A stretch of DNA of 64,000 nt from Halosolutus amylolyticus (GTDB lineage: Archaea > Halobacteriota > Halobacteria > Halobacteriales > Natrialbaceae): NCBI RefSeq assembly GCF_023566055.1, contig NZ_JALIQP010000001.1, positions 952,059 to 1,016,058 of the forward strand. Direction: 5' to 3'. The notes under the pieces were generated by a model. The model did not search any database. It saw only the letters and a list, made by a program, of their open reading frames with translations, and had not been told where the DNA came from. Positions 4,364 through 11,341 of the stretch are shown here, one piece after another. The translations under genes were made by a program, and so were the position numbers. Numbering within the stretch: position 1 is the stretch's first letter; each line of letters begins with the position of its first letter.

Positions 4364-6352
4364 TCACAATTCGGTCGTTTTTATCTCCTTGCTCCACCGC
4401 AGTTCACTGTCCAAGAGGACCGGGAAATCACCGCTCTCAAGGAAGTCTACGAGTTGACGTTTCGTGACGGGAGTTTCTCCAGCGTTGCCCGGAAATAGAT
4501 GATACGCGTCGACCGGTTCGATGCGAGGGCGGTGTATCCCACCGAGGGTGGATAGCTCCGTTATGTATGTGTGGCAGTCGATCGTTCTCTTACCTAATTT
4601 TCGTTTGATGATTCCCAGCAATGGTGATCCGGATTCTGGTTGTGAAACTGTTGTTTTCCCTGCCCCGATAATTTGATACTGCTGTCCACCAGTGCGGACC
4701 GTTCGTGTGATATCCATTGTCGCATACATCGGAAAGCCGTGACTCAGGAGTTGAGCAACGATACTCCCCACCTCGACAGCCTCCCGATTTTTCACATCAT
4801 CGAGCGTTACGATCCCTGCCTGGCTACCCAATTCGATGAGTTGGCGGCCTTGACGATAGGATTGACATGCGTTGAGGAAGAAAGCTGTCGCGCCAACGGT
4901 ATCGATCTTCGATGCGTCTATCTTTCCATTTGAACACCGAAAGCCCTCTCGATCGATGTGCCCGATATAGTGAAGGAAGTCGCTGTTTTTCGCCAGAATA
5001 TCTCCGAATTCGTCCTTCGTCAGGTTGTGATGGAGCGTAACCTCTAACGGGAACCGATCTCGTTCTTCGTATTTGCTGTGTACGCTCACGAATTCGCTGT
5101 TCATTTTTGGATCGTTACAAACGACCTCTATTTTGATCGGCCCCGATCGGGGAGATCGGTCGAGGCTGTGTCGGAATGCCGATAACGGCGACCGACCCAT
5201 AACCGTTGAGGACCTGACCGTGTTCCAGCGTTGATGAGCAGTCGCGCGAGTTTCCTCGTGCAAAACGTGGGAAGCAGATTTGTTCGAGAAGGTGTCGTCT
5301 TGGGTGGTATAAATCACCGATAGTTCTTCGACGAGGTGGGGAAGAAATTTCACGTTCTTCTCATTTTCTTCCAGTTTAGTTGTAACAGGCCAGGTTGGGA
5401 GATACGACATGACCGTCTCGAACGGTTCTTTGAGGTAGATCTCTGTTCGAGAGGCCAGTGATTCATTATATGTTTCCTCGATATCAAATTCGAGGTGTGG
5501 TTCCACAACCTGTCGCTCGTACAATGGTCCTGGACCTTCGCCCTCGGTTCGAACGATACAATCCAAGAAAAACACCTGTCTCAGTACCCGTTCGACTGTT
5601 GATTCGAATTCGTCCCCATTCCCGAGTCGGAACGAATATCCTGTTGGCGTTCTGAGTAGGGGTTCTGCTCCGGGAACCACTTTCGCCCCGAGATAGTATG
5701 CAAGCGGCGCAACGACGAGTACGTGCCTGACATCTGACGGTATCTCGATCGTGATGCCCGTTTCCGGACGCTCGAATTGATCCGGAATATTTAGTTTGTT
5801 GCCGAGTTCGATAATCGGTGGATGGCCCCTGAGCGTGGCGTACGATCGTTCGACTGACGTCGTTTTAAGTGCGGAACTGAATAACGATACTGCCTTCATC
5901 AAATCTGATGGATCCGTCGTGGTTTTGATCGTCCCTGCTGGGTTCGTATGAAACGATCGGGCACCGATAACTACCTCGGTAGCACTTCCGAACGAGATTT
6001 CGCTGTCTTCGCTTCCAAAGTCAATATCCATAGAACTATCGACAGCAAAGTACACCTTCATCCCTGAAGAAATGTCCAGAACGTATCTATCGTCGGGGAG
6101 GGAGAGTGATTGGTTTGGGTTTACTTCCGCAATTAATACCCCCTCATCGTTGTGTACGTAGATCGACTCCTTCGTCAGTACCGTCAATGAGTTCGTAATA
6201 ATCTGTCTCGTTGTATCCACTGGATACGGTATCTTACGGCCCCTGGACGGTACAGGTTCTACCTTTTTTGGTGTCAGGAGTCGTTGTCTGATCCGTTCGA
6301 TCGGATCGATAATTTCTAACCCATCTGAAGTATTTTCAATCGTGGCCTTCAT
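4364..6352 (-). CDS. CHAT-type caspase-like protein, copy 1
   Basis: 662 residues. The C-terminal part (about 405-560) has the layout of a caspase-fold CHAT peptidase: a hydrophobic strand ending in the HYIGHID motif (His461, His465) and a second strand ending in FLNACQS (Cys496), giving a His/Cys dyad. The first ~340 residues form a separate domain I do not recognise, opening with a GLEIIDPIER motif that copy 2 at 7348-9453 shares position for position. No signal peptide or membrane segment is evident, so it is probably cytoplasmic. It is divergent from the HalX regulator gene (154-base gap). Codon use is visibly AT-richer than that of the adjacent ribosomal genes, suggesting transfer. CHAT proteases elsewhere act in programmed death and defence; here the role is inference and the substrate unknown. 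Confidence 0.72.
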   Translation of the reverse strand: MKATIENTSDGLEIIDPIERIRQRLLTPKKVEPVPSRGRKIPYPVDTTRQIITNSLTVLTKESIYVHNDEGVLIAEVNPNQSLSLPDDRYVLDISSGMKVYFAVDSSMDIDFGSEDSEISFGSATEVVIGARSFHTNPAGTIKTTTDPSDLMKAVSLFSSALKTTSVERSYATLRGHPPIIELGNKLNIPDQFERPETGITIEIPSDVRHVLVVAPLAYYLGAKVVPGAEPLLRTPTGYSFRLGNGDEFESTVERVLRQVFFLDCIVRTEGEGPGPLYERQVVEPHLEFDIEETYNESLASRTEIYLKEPFETVMSYLPTWPVTTKLEENEKNVKFLPHLVEELSVIYTTQDDTFSNKSASHVLHEETRATAHQRWNTVRSSTVMGRSPLSAFRHSLDRSPRSGPIKIEVVCNDPKMNSEFVSVHSKYEERDRFPLEVTLHHNLTKDEFGDILAKNSDFLHYIGHIDREGFRCSNGKIDASKIDTVGATAFFLNACQSYRQGRQLIELGSQAGIVTLDDVKNREAVEVGSIVAQLLSHGFPMYATMDITRTVRTGGQQYQIIGAGKTTVSQPESGSPLLGIIKRKLGKRTIDCHTYITELSTLGGIHRPRIEPVDAYHLFPGNAGETPVTKRQLVDFLESGDFPVLLDSELRWSKEIKTTEL

Positions 6353-6470
6353 ATTCTAACACCTATTGTCAATAAGATTATTAAACACGAGTCATATGTT
6401 AGTATTATGCTCTCCGATAGTGGTTATATTGTTGGAAATCAAACCGGTTGGTTGCAGTTACTCGATCACA

Positions 6471-6476
6471 TTTAAT
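6471..6476 (+). promoter_or_regulatory. TATA box of the HalX gene
   Basis: TTTAAT about 33 bases before the GTG at 6507. It favours the short reading of the HalX gene over the ATG at 6366, which would add 47 residues with no similarity to a receiver domain. Confidence 0.45.
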
Positions 6477-6506
6477 AGCACCTGCCGACCAGTACTGGTA
6501 CGAGAC

Positions 6507-7076
6507 GTGGTGCTGGAATCTACTATCCATCTATTCGTCGTCCATCCGGACTTGACACTTGAGGATCCAGATGTGCTCGATCGTCGTATGGATTTCGAAA
6601 TTTCCGACGCTGAGTTCGACAAATCGATCCTAGACCAGATCGACGAGAGTTACGATGTCGTACTCCTTGATTGGAATCTCGAGATACCCGATGCACGTGG
6701 TGTACTGGATATCGTTCGACAACGTACTCCCGACACACGGATTCTTGCATTGATGTCGGACGTCCCCTCAGAAGACCCGATCGATCGCGGTGCCGACGAA
6801 TTCCTTGTCCAGCCGGTCTCGGACGAAACGCTATACAGGACGATCGAGCGACTGGCTCTGGAAAAGGAATACGAGGAATCGATGAACGAACTCTTCCGAC
6901 TGGCGACCGAGCGAGCCCTGCTCCAGACGGAGCGAGATTCGGACGCCGACGTAACCGATCAGTACGTGTCCGTTACTCAGGAACTGCAGGAGTGTAGAGA
7001 CCGTGCAGCATCGATCCGGGAGGAACTCTCGCTTGAGGAGTTCGATCGGGCACTGCGCCAACTGCTCGACGAGTGA
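6507..7076 (+). CDS. HalX-domain response regulator with degenerate receiver
   Basis: 189 residues from the GTG at 6507 (a second GTG follows at 6510). Residues 5-115 resemble a receiver domain and keep the phospho-acceptor aspartate (Asp55 in VVLLDWNL). The usual N-terminal acidic pair is replaced by His13-Pro14 and the usual lysine of the YLVKP motif is Gln102. Residues ~120-189 are the helical HalX domain (MNELFRLATERALLQTE, then a charged coiled segment). HalX is a haloarchaeal output domain that normally follows a receiver; no DNA-binding domain is visible. It lies between two CHAT-type genes and just before the microprotein gene, so it is a candidate signalling part of that locus. The loss of pocket residues suggests phosphorylation-independent action. 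Confidence 0.75.
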   Translation: MVLESTIHLFVVHPDLTLEDPDVLDRRMDFEISDAEFDKSILDQIDESYDVVLLDWNLEIPDARGVLDIVRQRTPDTRILALMSDVPSEDPIDRGADEFLVQPVSDETLYRTIERLALEKEYEESMNELFRLATERALLQTERDSDADVTDQYVSVTQELQECRDRAASIREELSLEEFDRALRQLLDE

Positions 7077-7179
7077 AAGGCCGTAATTTACGAATTCCCT
7101 TTCTGAGGTCTGGATTTCCGTGTCTAAGGGGCTGTTCTATTATCTCATACGTTTCGATCGGTTAACACACGGAATAATA

Positions 7180-7215
7180 CTATTATTGCTATATATGATA
7201 TATTAAAATAAATTG
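7180..7215 (+). promoter_or_regulatory. AT-rich promoter region of the microprotein gene
   Basis: Almost purely A/T stretch containing TATATATGATATATTAAA, ending about 33 bases before the ATG at 7248. It is among the most AT-rich non-coding DNA in the window, and the nearest gene it can serve is the 41-residue microprotein. Confidence 0.4.
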
Positions 7216-7247
7216 ATTACGGGCGCGTTCCATGGGTAGAACGTACC

Positions 7248-7373
7248 ATGACGGACTTAACTCAGTACCTGAAGAATCACCCGCGAATGATCGGTGTGCT
7301 GTTCACCATGATGTTAGTCTTGTCCCAGGCAGGGACTGTTGCAGCAATTAATAGTTCTTATCACGGTCCCTAA
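7248..7373 (+). CDS. 41-residue hydrophobic microprotein (DUF7503-like)
   Basis: Short gene with an ATG at 7248 and TAA at 7371-7373. Residues 1-12 are polar (MTDLTQYLKNHP), residues 14-34 are one hydrophobic segment (IGVLFTMMLVLSQAG core) and a short GP tail ends it. The NHPRMIGVLFTM...LSQAG pattern is one I associate with a recurrent ~40-residue haloarchaeal family often left unannotated (DUF7503, from memory). The polar start argues against a signal peptide; a single-span membrane peptide is more likely. Its last 26 bases overlap, in the opposite orientation, the 3' end of the second CHAT-type gene. Function unknown; position suggests a partner or target of the CHAT/HalX genes. Confidence 0.7.
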   Translation: MTDLTQYLKNHPRMIGVLFTMMLVLSQAGTVAAINSSYHGP

Positions 7374-9453
7374 TCGATTCAACTGTTTTTATAAACATAT
7401 CGCTCCAGATCATTTCGCCATTATACACGACAGGTACATCATCGACAGATAATAAATCAAGTACTTGACTAGTTGCAATAGAGAGGTTTTTTGTATTACC
7501 CGGGTTTATATAATGTGTGTTTATTGACTCTATATGTGGTACGAACACTCCTCCCTTTCCAGAACTAGGTGTAAGGTACGTATCCATTTCGACTTTCCAC
7601 ATGTTATTCTCCCGAGAAACTAAACAAATCGCTGGTTCTCCCCTTCTTGATTGGGCTATCCTTGTAGCCCCACTGCCTACAATGTGATATTGTTCCGCCA
7701 TCACGTTCTTCCTCCGAGCAATATCTAAAGATGCATAAATAGGAAACCCTTGATTTAACAGCCGTGCGATTGTCTTGCCGACACTAATGGCCCCGCTATT
7801 AACAACATCAGTGAGTGTTACGATTCCTCCGATACTCCCTTTTTCTATAAGGGTTAGCCCCTGATCATGTGATTGGCATGCGTTGAGTAAGAACGCTTTT
7901 AGGCCGACGCTGTCGAGTGATTTGGCGTCGAACTTTCCGTTCGAACACTGAAATCCATCTGTGTCGATGTGGCCGATGTAGTGGCAAAAATCGCTCTCCT
8001 GGGTGAGAATCCGTTCAAATGCGTTCTTCGTTAGATTGTGATGAATAGTCACATCAAACGGAAGTTCTTTGTGATTACCATAGAATTTGTTTACCGTCTC
8101 GAGTTCTTCGTTCATCTTCGAGTCGTTACAGACCACATCGATCGAGATGGGATCGTCTTTCGGCGTTCGCCCGATATCGTTCTGGAATGCTGTCAAGGGA
8201 GTCGTACTCGAGATCGGTGACGAATTCGTTCCGTTCCACCGCTGTTGCACCGTTGAAGTTTCCGATCCCCCGTGAGGGTGGGCTAGTGTGTCTGTTCCTC
8301 TGGTCGAGTGGCGAGTTTGACTCCCACTACCTCGTGTAAACGCTTCGATCGCCTGATTCTGGGCCTCGACCCGTGGCTTCTTGTCCCGAGTTTCGTCTCT
8401 CCCGTCCAGTTTTACGATCGAGAGATCGTCAGCGATGAACGGAAGAAATTCGATCGTTTCGCTCGGGGAATCGACCCGCGTCTCGAGTTGCCACTTCGGA
8501 AGGTGTGGTTCTAGGGAGGACACAGGTTCGTCGAGATACATCGCAACCTGTTCCGAAAGCGACTTCTCGTACGCAATTCCGGGGTCGAAGTCGAGAATCG
8601 GTTCGACGGCTTCCCGTTCATGGAGGGACAGCGGCGTCATCCCCTCGGTTCGAACGATGCAATCAAGCAAGAACAGTTGCTTGAGCGTTCGTTCTACGGT
8701 TGATTCGAATTTACCATCGGTCTTGAGCGAATGCGTGTACCCCGTTTCGGTGATGAGCTTCGGCTCCGGGCCGGGCGTGACGGTCGCTCCGAGATAGTAT
8801 GCGAGTGGAGTAACGACGAACACGTAGCCCAGTTCCGGTGGTACTTCGATACGAATCCCCGTCTGTGGCCGGTCTATCGTAGCAGGAATGTGCAATTCCT
8901 CTCCCTGTTCGAGTTTCGGCGGATGTCCTCGAAGCGTCGGGTACGATCGCTCCGGCGTCGTCGTTTTGAGAGCCGATCCGAACGCAGACACTGCTTTCAT
9001 TACGTCCGTGGGCTCTCTCGTCGTGGTAATCGTCTCCGCAGGGCGCGTGTGATACGATCGGGCACCGATGATCGCGTGGGTCCGATCTTCGAAGGAGATG
9101 TACGTTCGATTGGTATCGGAATAGATGTGAAGTCCGCACGTTATATTCACATACACTTTCATCGAGGCGGAAAGGTCGAGCGTATATTCCCCCTGACGAA
9201 ACGATCGCTGTTCGTTAGGTTGGACTTCGCCAACCATGGATCCGTCCGCGCTGCGAATATAGATGGTCTCCTTCGTCGATAGCGTGAGCATTTCCGTCGT
9301 AATTCCGACCGCTGCATCGATCGGATACTGGATTCGATCGCAATCGACAGCAGTCGGTGTCACCGGCTCGTGGGTCGTGAGCCGGTACCGGTGGCGTTCG
9401 ATCGGGTCGATAATTTCGAGGCCGTCCTCGATCGGTTCGAATTTCGGGTTCAT
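7348..9453 (-). CDS. CHAT-type caspase-like protein, copy 2
   Basis: 701 residues, paralogue of the protein at 4364-6352. The start is the ATG at 9453 because it aligns with copy 1 from residue 10 (GLEIIDPIER) onward; an upstream in-frame ATG at 9579 would add 42 residues that copy 1 lacks. Catalytic-type motifs are HYIGHID (His491, His495) and FLLNACQS (Cys526), as in copy 1. The first ~340 residues align without gaps; then copy 2 has roughly 30 extra residues in a low-complexity linker (350-410). It lies 85 bases downstream of, and in the same direction as, the DUF7504-like gene, so they may share a transcript. The 3' end overlaps the microprotein gene. Confidence 0.72.
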   Translation of the reverse strand: MNPKFEPIEDGLEIIDPIERHRYRLTTHEPVTPTAVDCDRIQYPIDAAVGITTEMLTLSTKETIYIRSADGSMVGEVQPNEQRSFRQGEYTLDLSASMKVYVNITCGLHIYSDTNRTYISFEDRTHAIIGARSYHTRPAETITTTREPTDVMKAVSAFGSALKTTTPERSYPTLRGHPPKLEQGEELHIPATIDRPQTGIRIEVPPELGYVFVVTPLAYYLGATVTPGPEPKLITETGYTHSLKTDGKFESTVERTLKQLFLLDCIVRTEGMTPLSLHEREAVEPILDFDPGIAYEKSLSEQVAMYLDEPVSSLEPHLPKWQLETRVDSPSETIEFLPFIADDLSIVKLDGRDETRDKKPRVEAQNQAIEAFTRGSGSQTRHSTRGTDTLAHPHGGSETSTVQQRWNGTNSSPISSTTPLTAFQNDIGRTPKDDPISIDVVCNDSKMNEELETVNKFYGNHKELPFDVTIHHNLTKNAFERILTQESDFCHYIGHIDTDGFQCSNGKFDAKSLDSVGLKAFLLNACQSHDQGLTLIEKGSIGGIVTLTDVVNSGAISVGKTIARLLNQGFPIYASLDIARRKNVMAEQYHIVGSGATRIAQSRRGEPAICLVSRENNMWKVEMDTYLTPSSGKGGVFVPHIESINTHYINPGNTKNLSIATSQVLDLLSVDDVPVVYNGEMIWSDMFIKTVESIRDRDKNY

Positions 9454-9538: not shown

Positions 9539-10282
9539 TTACGTCTCGGGTGCGGTGAGCCACCCGGAACAGTGGCCACTGTCCGGGAGGGACCATCGCT
9601 CCTGGAGGCAGTTGTTCCGATCCTGGAGTTCGACGAGGACGTCGAACAGCGGTTTCAGGACCGGGACGACGTCGGCGTCCGGCTCGACGGGGAGCAGGTA
9701 GTGGACCATTCCATCGACGTCTGTCACGCGGCCGTTGATCAGGTGAACGAACTTGAACACCTGTTCGGTGCTGTAGTCCTCGAGCAGCGGGAGCAGGGAG
9801 TCGACGCCGACCCGGAGTTCGCTCGGTTCGAAGCCGTCGGCGTCGGTTTCGAAGTCCTCGATCGCGCTCGAGATGGCGATGCCGAGGTCGCCAAGGGTGT
9901 CCGCGGTGGTTCCGTCGTCGTCGATCGCCGGCGGGGTGTGGTCGTCGATCGGTTCGGAGGCGACGGCGCTACGCGTCTGGCTCCCGTAGGTGACGAACCG
10001 GAGTCCGTCCGAAATCGAGGGCTCACTCACGAGCGAGTGATGATCACCGCTGCTCGTCGAGACGAGCACGCGGCGGCGGTCACGTTCGGACGCGTGTCCC
10101 AGCAGGCGTCGGGAGGCGCTCCGCTGATGCTCGGGGCGGACGGAGCCGACGACCAGGACGCTCGCACCCCGTCGTTTCAACTGTGACAACTCTTCGGTGA
10201 ACGAATCGTCGGTCGGCTCTTCCTCGCGATCCTTGGCCGAGAACATCAATTGTATGTTCCACTCGTTAGCCGTGTCAAACAT
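9539..10282 (-). CDS. DUF7504-like (RecA-fold related) haloarchaeal protein
   Basis: 247 residues starting at the ATG at 10282. An early strand-turn segment (GASVLVVGSVRPEH) followed by ASRRLLGHASERDRRRVLVSTS resembles the degenerate RecA/KaiC-like core of haloarchaeal signalling proteins usually named DUF7504 or HTR-like. The middle is acidic and linker-like; the C-terminal ~90 residues (LLPLLEDYSTEQVFKFVHLI onward) are helical. No intact Walker A motif is visible. It lies upstream of and co-directional with CHAT-type copy 2, so it may belong to that system; it could equally be part of the conserved EF-2 neighbourhood. Confidence 0.6.
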   Translation of the reverse strand: MFDTANEWNIQLMFSAKDREEEPTDDSFTEELSQLKRRGASVLVVGSVRPEHQRSASRRLLGHASERDRRRVLVSTSSGDHHSLVSEPSISDGLRFVTYGSQTRSAVASEPIDDHTPPAIDDDGTTADTLGDLGIAISSAIEDFETDADGFEPSELRVGVDSLLPLLEDYSTEQVFKFVHLINGRVTDVDGMVHYLLPVEPDADVVPVLKPLFDVLVELQDRNNCLQERWSLPDSGHCSGWLTAPET

Positions 10283-10359: not shown

Positions 10360-11115
10360 CTAATCGGCCGCGGACTCCACACCGCCGACGTAGGATCGGG
10401 TCGCCTCGACGAGCACCTGCCGGTAGCTGCTCGTGTCGGGGTCGCGCGCGAGTTCCCGGAAGCGGCGGTTGAACTCCCCGAACGGGACCTCCGGAGCGTC
10501 CATCGCGGCCGCGTGTGCGATGTCGTACAGTCGGTGGCCGTCGTCGACGAGGTCGTGACGTTCCGCGAGTGCCAGCGCGAACGCCGCGTTGACGGCCGTA
10601 ATCTCGGGATCGGCACCCGGGGAGATCCGTTCGAGGCCCGGCCGCGGCGGCGTTCCGGGCCGATCGGCGACGGCCGCCGCGAGACTCGATTCGAGAAAGG
10701 AGAGGAGCTTCTTTCCGGGGCCCACCGAGAGGGTGATGTCGTCGGCGTAGATGTCTTTCATGTGGTTGGCGATCTGGTAGCAGTGGGTGAGCTTTCGCCG
10801 TTCGACGGATTTGCCGGCGAGCGCGAGATAGAGGACCTCTTCGGTCGACTGGGTGTGGGAGGGATGTTCCTGTTCGTACCTGGCCATGTGGGCGAACTCG
10901 TGGAGGACGAGTTCCGGGGCCATCGCGGAGGAGGCGGCCTGCCGCGAGATGTTCAGGACGTGGTGGTCGTCGTAGTGGCCGGCCCAGGTGCGTTCGTCGG
11001 GGTCGTCCCGCAACTGGATCTCGACCGGGAGCGTCAGATCGTGTTCGGTTTCGAATCGGTCCCGGGCGCTGAGAAACGGCGCGGTCGGGCCCGGTCCCTG
11101 GACGTGGACATCCAT
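10360..11115 (-). CDS. DUF5781 family putative metalloprotein
   Basis: 251 residues from the ATG at 11115. The motif HEFAH (His72, Glu73, His76) followed by MARYEQEH is a zincin-type HExxH site, so a metal-dependent peptidase-like fold is likely. The rest is mostly helical. It matches a haloarchaeal family I know as DUF5781, with no established function. Divergent from the EF-2 gene with 226 bases between the start codons. An in-frame upstream ATG at 11238 is less likely because the extra 41 residues are basic and unlike haloarchaeal coding sequence. Confidence 0.72.
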   Translation of the reverse strand: MDVHVQGPGPTAPFLSARDRFETEHDLTLPVEIQLRDDPDERTWAGHYDDHHVLNISRQAASSAMAPELVLHEFAHMARYEQEHPSHTQSTEEVLYLALAGKSVERRKLTHCYQIANHMKDIYADDITLSVGPGKKLLSFLESSLAAAVADRPGTPPRPGLERISPGADPEITAVNAAFALALAERHDLVDDGHRLYDIAHAAAMDAPEVPFGEFNRRFRELARDPDTSSYRQVLVEATRSYVGGVESAAD

Positions 11116-11341
11116 GCGTACCAATACCAAGTTCCCTCGAAGTATGTCTCTTACGCCCGGTATCGGTGGCCGCAACTGGCCCGGCGAGCCGTCGCCTATC
11201 GGACCCCGTCGAGAACCGTCTCGGTGCGTGGCATTCACTCACGTAAACTGGACATTCCGACGCCCCAACGGGGAAATTCGCTGAATTCGACCGGAGACGA
11301 AACACTACCCTTTTGACCCCGCTACCGGTATTGGGGGGTAT

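Follow-up and report, generated by a model that had tools for sequence, protein, structure and literature searches.

CHAT proteases can cut dedicated partner proteins, and the closest described case is Csx29, a TPR-CHAT protein that acts on its dedicated substrate Csx30 in type III-E CRISPR systems (PMC10028731). HetF of cyanobacteria, which has CHAT, transmembrane, and TPR regions, acts together with the divisome (PMC8406250). Peptide signaling of the RRNPPA kind (Rap-Phr, AimR-AimP, and others) relies on small propeptides, of which Sec-type and leaderless forms both occur (PMC12700828). Here, we describe a locus in a 64,000-nucleotide stretch of Halosolutus amylolyticus DNA (NZ_JALIQP010000001.1, positions 952,059 to 1,016,058), which as a whole is called the window. 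It encodes two CHAT-family proteins, P0001 and P0002, and a 41-residue DUF7503 peptide ending in Gly-Pro, and by its sequence features the combination of CHAT protein and Gly-Pro-tailed peptide looks like an undescribed protease-peptide switch. The literature searched holds no mention of DUF7503, nor of CHAT domains together with haloarchaea or Haloferax. Named plasmid records label relatives mostly as "hypothetical protein", once as "CHAT domain-containing protein", and once as "caspase family protein"; automated annotation has thus reached individual proteins but has described neither the family nor the pair.

Like Csx29, the haloarchaeal proteins combine a CHAT His-Cys dyad with a fused non-protease regulatory region and are encoded with a dedicated partner protein. 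Unlike Csx29, their N-terminal domain is not recognized as TPR by Pfam, no Cas gene accompanies them, and they are near-universal rather than CRISPR-linked, while the partner differs from Csx30 in being a Gly-Pro-tailed protein of 41 to 190 residues. The type III-E hallmarks cas7-11, csx30, and TPR were not found; the conserved neighbors are DUF7503, DUF7504, HalX, and housekeeping genes, with no convincing PADLOC match. Compared with gasdermin-linked systems, the conserved CHAT neighbors are again DUF7503, DUF7504, and HalX, although a gasdermin-profile search was not made at every locus. HetF is similar in being a CHAT protein of prokaryotic physiology rather than of a defense island, yet it has transmembrane and TPR regions, and a Gly-Pro peptide was not found in the part of its description covered here (PMC8406250). 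The RRNPPA systems share the arrangement of a large cytosolic protein beside a small propeptide whose short peptide is proposed to be active, and layout and tail anatomy appear to fit. They differ in that the haloarchaeal proteins have no recognizable TPR receptor, the effector is a protease, the genes are convergent, and the hosts are Archaea and not Bacillota; the likeness is an analogy of logic only.

The main features are given below as positions in the window, with open reading frames (ORFs) called mechanically. The genomes sampled for comparison are related to one another, and counts are not numbers of independent events.

7348..9453, minus strand: P0002, 701 amino acids, with an N-terminal domain (about residues 1-345), a linker, and a predicted C-terminal CHAT cysteine protease; the paired protease of the peptide.
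4364..6352, minus strand: P0001, 662 amino acids, the tandem paralogue of P0002; its dyad is intact, and its 3' end lacks a peptide gene.
7969..7971, minus strand: codon of the predicted catalytic His495 of P0002 (GHID motif), invariant in 89/89 and aligned with canonical CHAT GH[GA].
7876..7878, minus strand: codon of the predicted catalytic Cys526 of P0002 (LNACQS motif), invariant in 89/89 and aligned with canonical CHAT [SN]AC.
4958..4960, minus strand: codon of the predicted catalytic His465 of P0001, invariant in 89/89.
4865..4867, minus strand: codon of the predicted catalytic Cys496 of P0001, invariant in 89/89.
7248..7373, plus strand: DUF7503 microprotein, 41 amino acids (Pfam PF24335, E=4e-22).
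7347..7370, plus strand: C-terminal tail INSSYHGP of the microprotein, the proposed active unit (Gly-Pro conservation, free wobble, multicopy form in genus g57).

P0001 and P0002 are approximately 46% identical over their whole length, in keeping with full-length homology, and the match of Cys and His residues, the paralogy, and the layout are far beyond chance. Judged by profile comparison, the C-terminal region of both is a true CHAT domain. Scanned singly in Pfam, neither protein matches PF12770, whereas 22 of 67 relatives do (best E 4e-4), with every other family seen in at most two members. A profile of the C-terminal region aligns over 201 columns with one built from 13 canonical CHATs from elsewhere in the phylum (hhalign 97.0%, E=1e-10), against a probability of 0.1% for the N-terminal domain used as a control. 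When 145 Halobacteria genomes were searched with PF12770, the matches were members of the CHAT family wherever coordinates could be compared, and 9 genomes exceeded the curated cut-off. The hhalign alignment pairs H465/H495, the second His of HYIGH, with the His of GH[GA], and LNACQS with the canonical Cys. Both His residues and the Cys of this region are invariant in the 89 relatives, and two distant homologues have Gln for the first His and keep the second. Because the second His aligns with the canonical residue and is the one that these homologues retain, it is taken as catalytic. An earlier account of the locus, made from the letters alone and here called the sequence-only reading, had rightly described two paralogous ORFs of 662 and 701 residues with caspase-like C-termini, and its Cys496 and Cys526 stand, whereas its His461 and His491 lie four residues off. 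In a distant homologue outside Halobacteria (L133:4840-6900, minus strand), GR stands in place of GH and another residue in place of the Cys, which makes it a natural dead copy.

The N-terminal domain of about 340 residues is as unrecognized as that reading had held, with no match in Pfam, NCBIfam, PADLOC, PHROGs, or PDB sequences. The full proteins gave nothing above threshold in Pfam and nothing in NCBIfam, PADLOC, or PHROGs, and no TPR match was obtained in Pfam or PDB sequences. A hit of P0001 to PF25215 (HVO_B0008_C, E=0.028) was set aside as chance, being seen in 1 of 67 members. AlphaFold2 models, made from 4 sequences only, reached predicted local distance difference test values of 45 and 40, with a beta-strand order that is suggestive only, and Foldseek with these low-scoring models returned no match at E<=0.001.

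The CHAT gene usually has the peptide gene as its convergent neighbor. In the tree, the DUF7503-paired copies, including P0002, make up clade A. Sampling by CHAT match found a convergent DUF7503 gene at the 3' end of nearly all clade-A copies, and sampling by DUF7503 match alone found a convergent CHAT gene at 40/40 loci. The dyad is intact in all 81 CHATs that have a DUF7503 neighbor. The 3' ends usually touch, with gap modes of 0 and -4 bases; 78 of 79 measured gaps fall within -38 to +206 bases, and one is 992. In the window, the final 26 bases of the DUF7503 gene overlap the 3' end of P0002, and the microprotein scores 78 bits against a curated cut-off of 27. From this gene order, the conserved core appears to be a two-gene convergent CHAT-DUF7503 pair that is close to obligate, which bears out the earlier idea of a dedicated partner peptide next door.

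The DUF7503 partner of P0002 has a short N-terminus, an HPRMIGVLFT hydrophobic segment, V-A-A, a variable tail, and a C-terminal Gly-Pro. This follows a general pattern of HP[RK]MxG[VA]LFTxxLLL[ST]QAGx[VA]xA, a variable stretch, and Gly-Pro, and the length from HP[RK] to the C-terminus is 31-33 in 77/80 peptides. The tail is approximately 8-9 residues long, variable, and almost uncharged, charged residues making up 1.6% of DUF7503 tails versus 24% in CHATs. The most conserved element is the Gly-Pro ending, present in 113/120 peptides. Across 243 close pairs, the ratio of nonsynonymous to synonymous change (pN/pS) falls to 0.006 for Gly-Pro, compared with 0.125 for the core and 0.446 for the tail, and most wobble combinations of the Gly-Pro codons are used. 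Gly-Pro is therefore selected at the protein level, and a cause in the DNA, such as a GGNCC palindrome or a terminator, was rejected as both wobble positions vary freely. Positive selection for tail hypervariability was likewise rejected on the tail value. Protein-level selection also bears on the suggestion that the convergent pair is kept for antisense regulation, with 3' ends that couple expression and proteins that do not interact. The abutting or overlapping ends of many loci suit it, but gaps as wide as those above still keep Gly-Pro and pairing, and unrelated carriers, described below, have the same ending; we regard this explanation as very unlikely indeed.

Tails change slowly within genera, as seen for the GNTGVIYGP-type tails across genus g43, and paralogous pairs within one genome usually have different tails, such as NGASAYSGP and GVARACYGP in L114. 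The V/A-x-A ahead of the tail resembles a signal peptidase site, and a charge-based prediction of topology places the N-terminus inside and the tail outside the cell. Sequons are found in 25.5% of tails versus 13.9%, a difference that rests on related sequences and is suggestive of export. Endings and CHAT residues may also vary together (L174H and Y492F beside GT/GL tails), although this was seen in two sister rows only and is only a lead.

The same ending is found on proteins other than DUF7503. Clade B of the tree, 17 rows with an intact dyad and no DUF7503, has a convergent small ORF ending in -GP at 8/17 CHATs, within -16 to +88 bases. Among the ORF ends at these loci, 8/25 are -GP against a background of 15/1920 (0.78%), with a nominal P=1.3e-11 and several related rows. 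One such carrier is MGVRHNRLWWVVQ...AKRVSTYGGP; a copy lies in the genome that the window comes from (L074:6354-6476, plus strand), as a 40-residue ORF, MGARHNRLWW...AKRVSTYGGP, convergent with and 88 bases from the 3' end of that genome's third CHAT gene, a member of clade B. In genomes without a clear DUF7503, 9/20 further CHATs have a -GP small ORF, and these carriers mostly consist of a positively charged N-terminus, one membrane segment, and a longer acidic stretch, with ends such as TTTTPGP, SSTNSGP, and TVTNPGP. Six -GP carriers were scanned, and none rose above the cut-off of any Pfam family. The clade-B partners of Natrialbaceae have no membrane segment and are soluble with a single tail.

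A soluble form with many tails is found in genus g57. At one locus (L054), DUF7503 seemed to be missing and was replaced in situ by an ORF of tandem GNGGGISGP copies. In g57, a tandem-tail ORF is present in 6/8 genomes, with 4, 5, 7, 7, 10, and 13 copies; these soluble proteins of GNSGGISGP-type nonapeptides (L240, L241, L242, L243, L244, and L247) are convergent with CHAT and take the place of DUF7503. The 46 copies are identical in protein sequence within each genome, yet at the DNA level their units differ by 1.5-4.0 of the 27 bases; Ala-Asp precedes 45 of the copies. No signal peptide is apparent in the tandem form. Two sister genomes of g57 have an ordinary single-tail DUF7503 (tails SNGAATSGP and GNSGAISGP), and the N-termini of the two forms match as MSExDSGTVA; from these observations, the hydrophobic segment was replaced by repeated tails. 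The existence of soluble tandem-repeat and soluble single-tail partners means that the membrane segment is dispensable. Although the search was not designed for it, this multicopy finding is the strongest single evidence for the tail as a unit, and Ala-Asp ahead of each repeat suggests a caspase-like cut, by whichever protease. The yeast alpha-factor likewise comes from a multicopy precursor, in which proteolysis frees short identical peptides arrayed in tandem with a conserved spacer. The g57 proteins resemble it in their tandem identical tails and conserved spacer; unlike it, they show no apparent signal peptide, and the two are not homologous.

Our preferred reading, held tentatively and at close to an even judgment, is that the tail, and not the membrane segment, would be the working unit, as ligand or product of the CHAT protein. 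The shared elements are CHAT and a Gly-Pro-ended tail on carriers that may or may not have a membrane segment and that differ in length and copy number, which makes a pore former unlikely, and one tail recognized by CHAT would account for all carrier forms. The CHAT cysteine protease would be cytosolic, would have a sensor-like N-terminal domain of its own, and would be matched to a small precursor protein, of which the working part would be a C-terminal, near-uncharged peptide of about 8-9 residues with a free Gly-Pro end. For the DUF7503 type, the simplest route to a free tail would be cleavage at A-x-A by signal peptidase, outside the cell; the soluble tandem proteins would instead be cut beside each copy, plausibly by CHAT itself after Ala-Asp. 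The freed peptide may bind CHAT, at its N-terminal domain or protease groove, and switch its activity, and the sites considered for the tail are the ERSYPTLRGHPP region or the groove. Together the two would form a protease switch under the control of a peptide, and HalX and DUF7504 would be its optional regulators. Processing, binding, and the direction of control are steps that we infer, as are signaling, export, and travel between cells.

Alternatively, the microprotein may stay whole in the membrane or cytosol, where its Gly-Pro C-terminus docks to tether, inhibit, or activate CHAT and nothing is released. The DUF7503 hydrophobic segment is itself strongly conserved (QAG, LFT), beyond the need of an ordinary signal peptide, and a C-terminal motif on differing carriers suits a docking tag, for which repeats could give avidity. 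Identical multicopy units with Ala-Asp before each look instead like a processed precursor, the internal repeats have no free C-terminus, and many carriers are predicted to have their tail outside. We consider docking a serious candidate that is nevertheless unlikely.

Several observations weigh against the ligand reading. Since the DUF7503 tails are predicted to lie outside and CHAT has no export signal, the model requires import unless these tails have another role. The tail pN/pS, below 1, shows relaxed and not diversifying change. The related DUF7503 peptides of L062, L063, and L064 end in Thr-Ile-Asp (TID) and not in Gly-Pro beside intact CHATs. At 9/17 clade-B loci, and at roughly half of the remaining loci without DUF7503, a peptide gene was looked for and not found; the same holds for the tandem duplicates and for a six-row clade that includes L148, L149, L151, and L153. 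The predicted structures are too poor to view dyad geometry or a peptide pocket. By analogy with Rap-Phr, an outside tail would suit a signal that returns to a cytosolic receptor, and it leaves equal room for a membrane regulator. A wider version is archaeal peptide communication, in which exported, short, neutral Gly-Pro peptides would each be cognate to a cytosolic CHAT sensor that answers by proteolysis. Where one genome has paralogous pairs with differing tails, each pair would then be a separate channel, and the g57 polyprotein a leaderless multicopy form; this is a minority possibility, which we hold to be unlikely as it stands. If the tail is a signal, the pair would provide a genetic handle on peptide signaling in Archaea.

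CHAT-family homologues are present in 365/391 Halobacteria genomes and, among genomes sampled in the phylum, in four genomes of one other family. No relatives of the CHAT proteins were found in viral contigs (IMG/VR). The sporadic, island-linked distribution of anti-virus or abortive-infection systems is not seen, given this breadth and, in the Natrialbaceae sampled, a fixed site bounded by rps7 and the EF-2 gene. CHAT and DUF7503 are among the most widespread uncharacterized gene pairs of haloarchaea. This breadth bears on the proposal that CHAT cuts the membrane peptide to yield a pore former or death effector, by gasdermin-like logic, which the sequence-only reading had entertained as a membrane death module. 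A one-pass membrane peptide beside a CHAT gene suits it, as does the precedent of Csx29 and Csx30 (PMC10028731). The family is not sporadic, however, PADLOC gave no convincing match, and the membrane segment is lost in 6/8 g57 genomes and absent from the Natrialbaceae clade-B partners, the conserved end being in the tail; a death effector is quite unlikely, and the module is disfavored. The tail could also be a secreted bioactive product, such as a microhalocin-like antimicrobial or a modified peptide, and CHAT would then be the protease that matures it or its immunity factor. A short, exported-type precursor with a variable C-terminal core, the multicopy form, and the differing tails of paralogues would fit, but no conserved modification or transport genes lie nearby, and a near-universal, neutral, very small peptide that changes slowly within genera speaks against it, so that we find this improbable.

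Haloferax volcanii has a strong constitutive caspase-like activity (LEVDase, VEIDase, and IETDase) with no gene assigned, low YVAD cleavage in extracts, and genomes said to be without clear homologues (PMC3615174). The CHAT family is likewise haloarchaeal and caspase-like, and H. volcanii is DUF7503-positive. The CHAT gene is a first concrete candidate for this orphan activity, although the assignment is only a lead. The quorum signal of H. volcanii, chemically not yet identified, is a small molecule that is extractable in ethyl acetate and resistant to proteinase K (PMC12240190), and a neutral nonapeptide of the Gly-Pro type is not favored for it.

The remaining genes of the locus are the following.

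6510..7076, plus strand: HalX response-regulator-like gene with a GTG start and a degenerate receiver (PF08663, E=6e-5), upstream of the peptide gene.
9539..10222, minus strand: DUF7504 gene, start approximate (PF24336, E=1e-55), upstream of P0002.

The HalX gene and the peptide gene lie between the two CHAT genes, and both are real, as first described. The PF08663 match of HalX is just above cut-off and its PF00072 receiver match below cut-off in Pfam, and the usual KP lysine is read as Gln. HalX adjoins about 1/5 of loci and DUF7504 stands beside CHAT at about half. Loci that have HalX usually carry it together with DUF7503 on one strand, opposite CHAT and DUF7504, and the HalX/DUF7503/CHAT order recurs in part of two families. 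By these frequencies, HalX and DUF7504 appear to be facultative neighbors. In the tree, P0001 is one of six Natrialbaceae rows, tandem duplicates that have no peptide, which form a clade of their own (support 99), and the second CHAT gene is, on its tree position, a lineage-specific Natrialbaceae duplication. The sequence-only reading had joined two proteases, HalX, and the peptide in one unit; the second protease is a duplicate without its own peptide, HalX is present at a minority of loci, and DUF7504, which went unmentioned, is commoner. The four genes do not co-occur as a unit, while CHAT and peptide do.

Elsewhere in the tree, clade C (12 rows, without DUF7503) keeps the N-terminal domain and has lost the dyad. 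L135-L145 have the same N-terminal domain and no His/Cys dyad at the CHAT positions, and are probably pseudo-proteases or proteins with a different C-terminal effector. L148 and L149 of family f2 have tandem arrays of two to three clade-A CHAT genes and no Gly-Pro peptide, and two genomes of genus g64 (G124 and G346) have 12 and 10 CHAT matches each, many with different long-ectodomain -GP partners. One genome has two DUF7503 copies of identical score near each contig end (G368:C1:1820-1945 and 2988500-2988625), both with the tail NNGATISGP. The locus is flanked by rps7 and the EF-2 gene, here and in sampled Natrialbaceae with the same arrangement. Between DUF7504 and the EF-2 gene, at 10360-11238 on the minus strand of the window, lies a HEFAH-motif gene resembling zinc metalloproteases, whose position is kept in the sampled Natrialbaceae.

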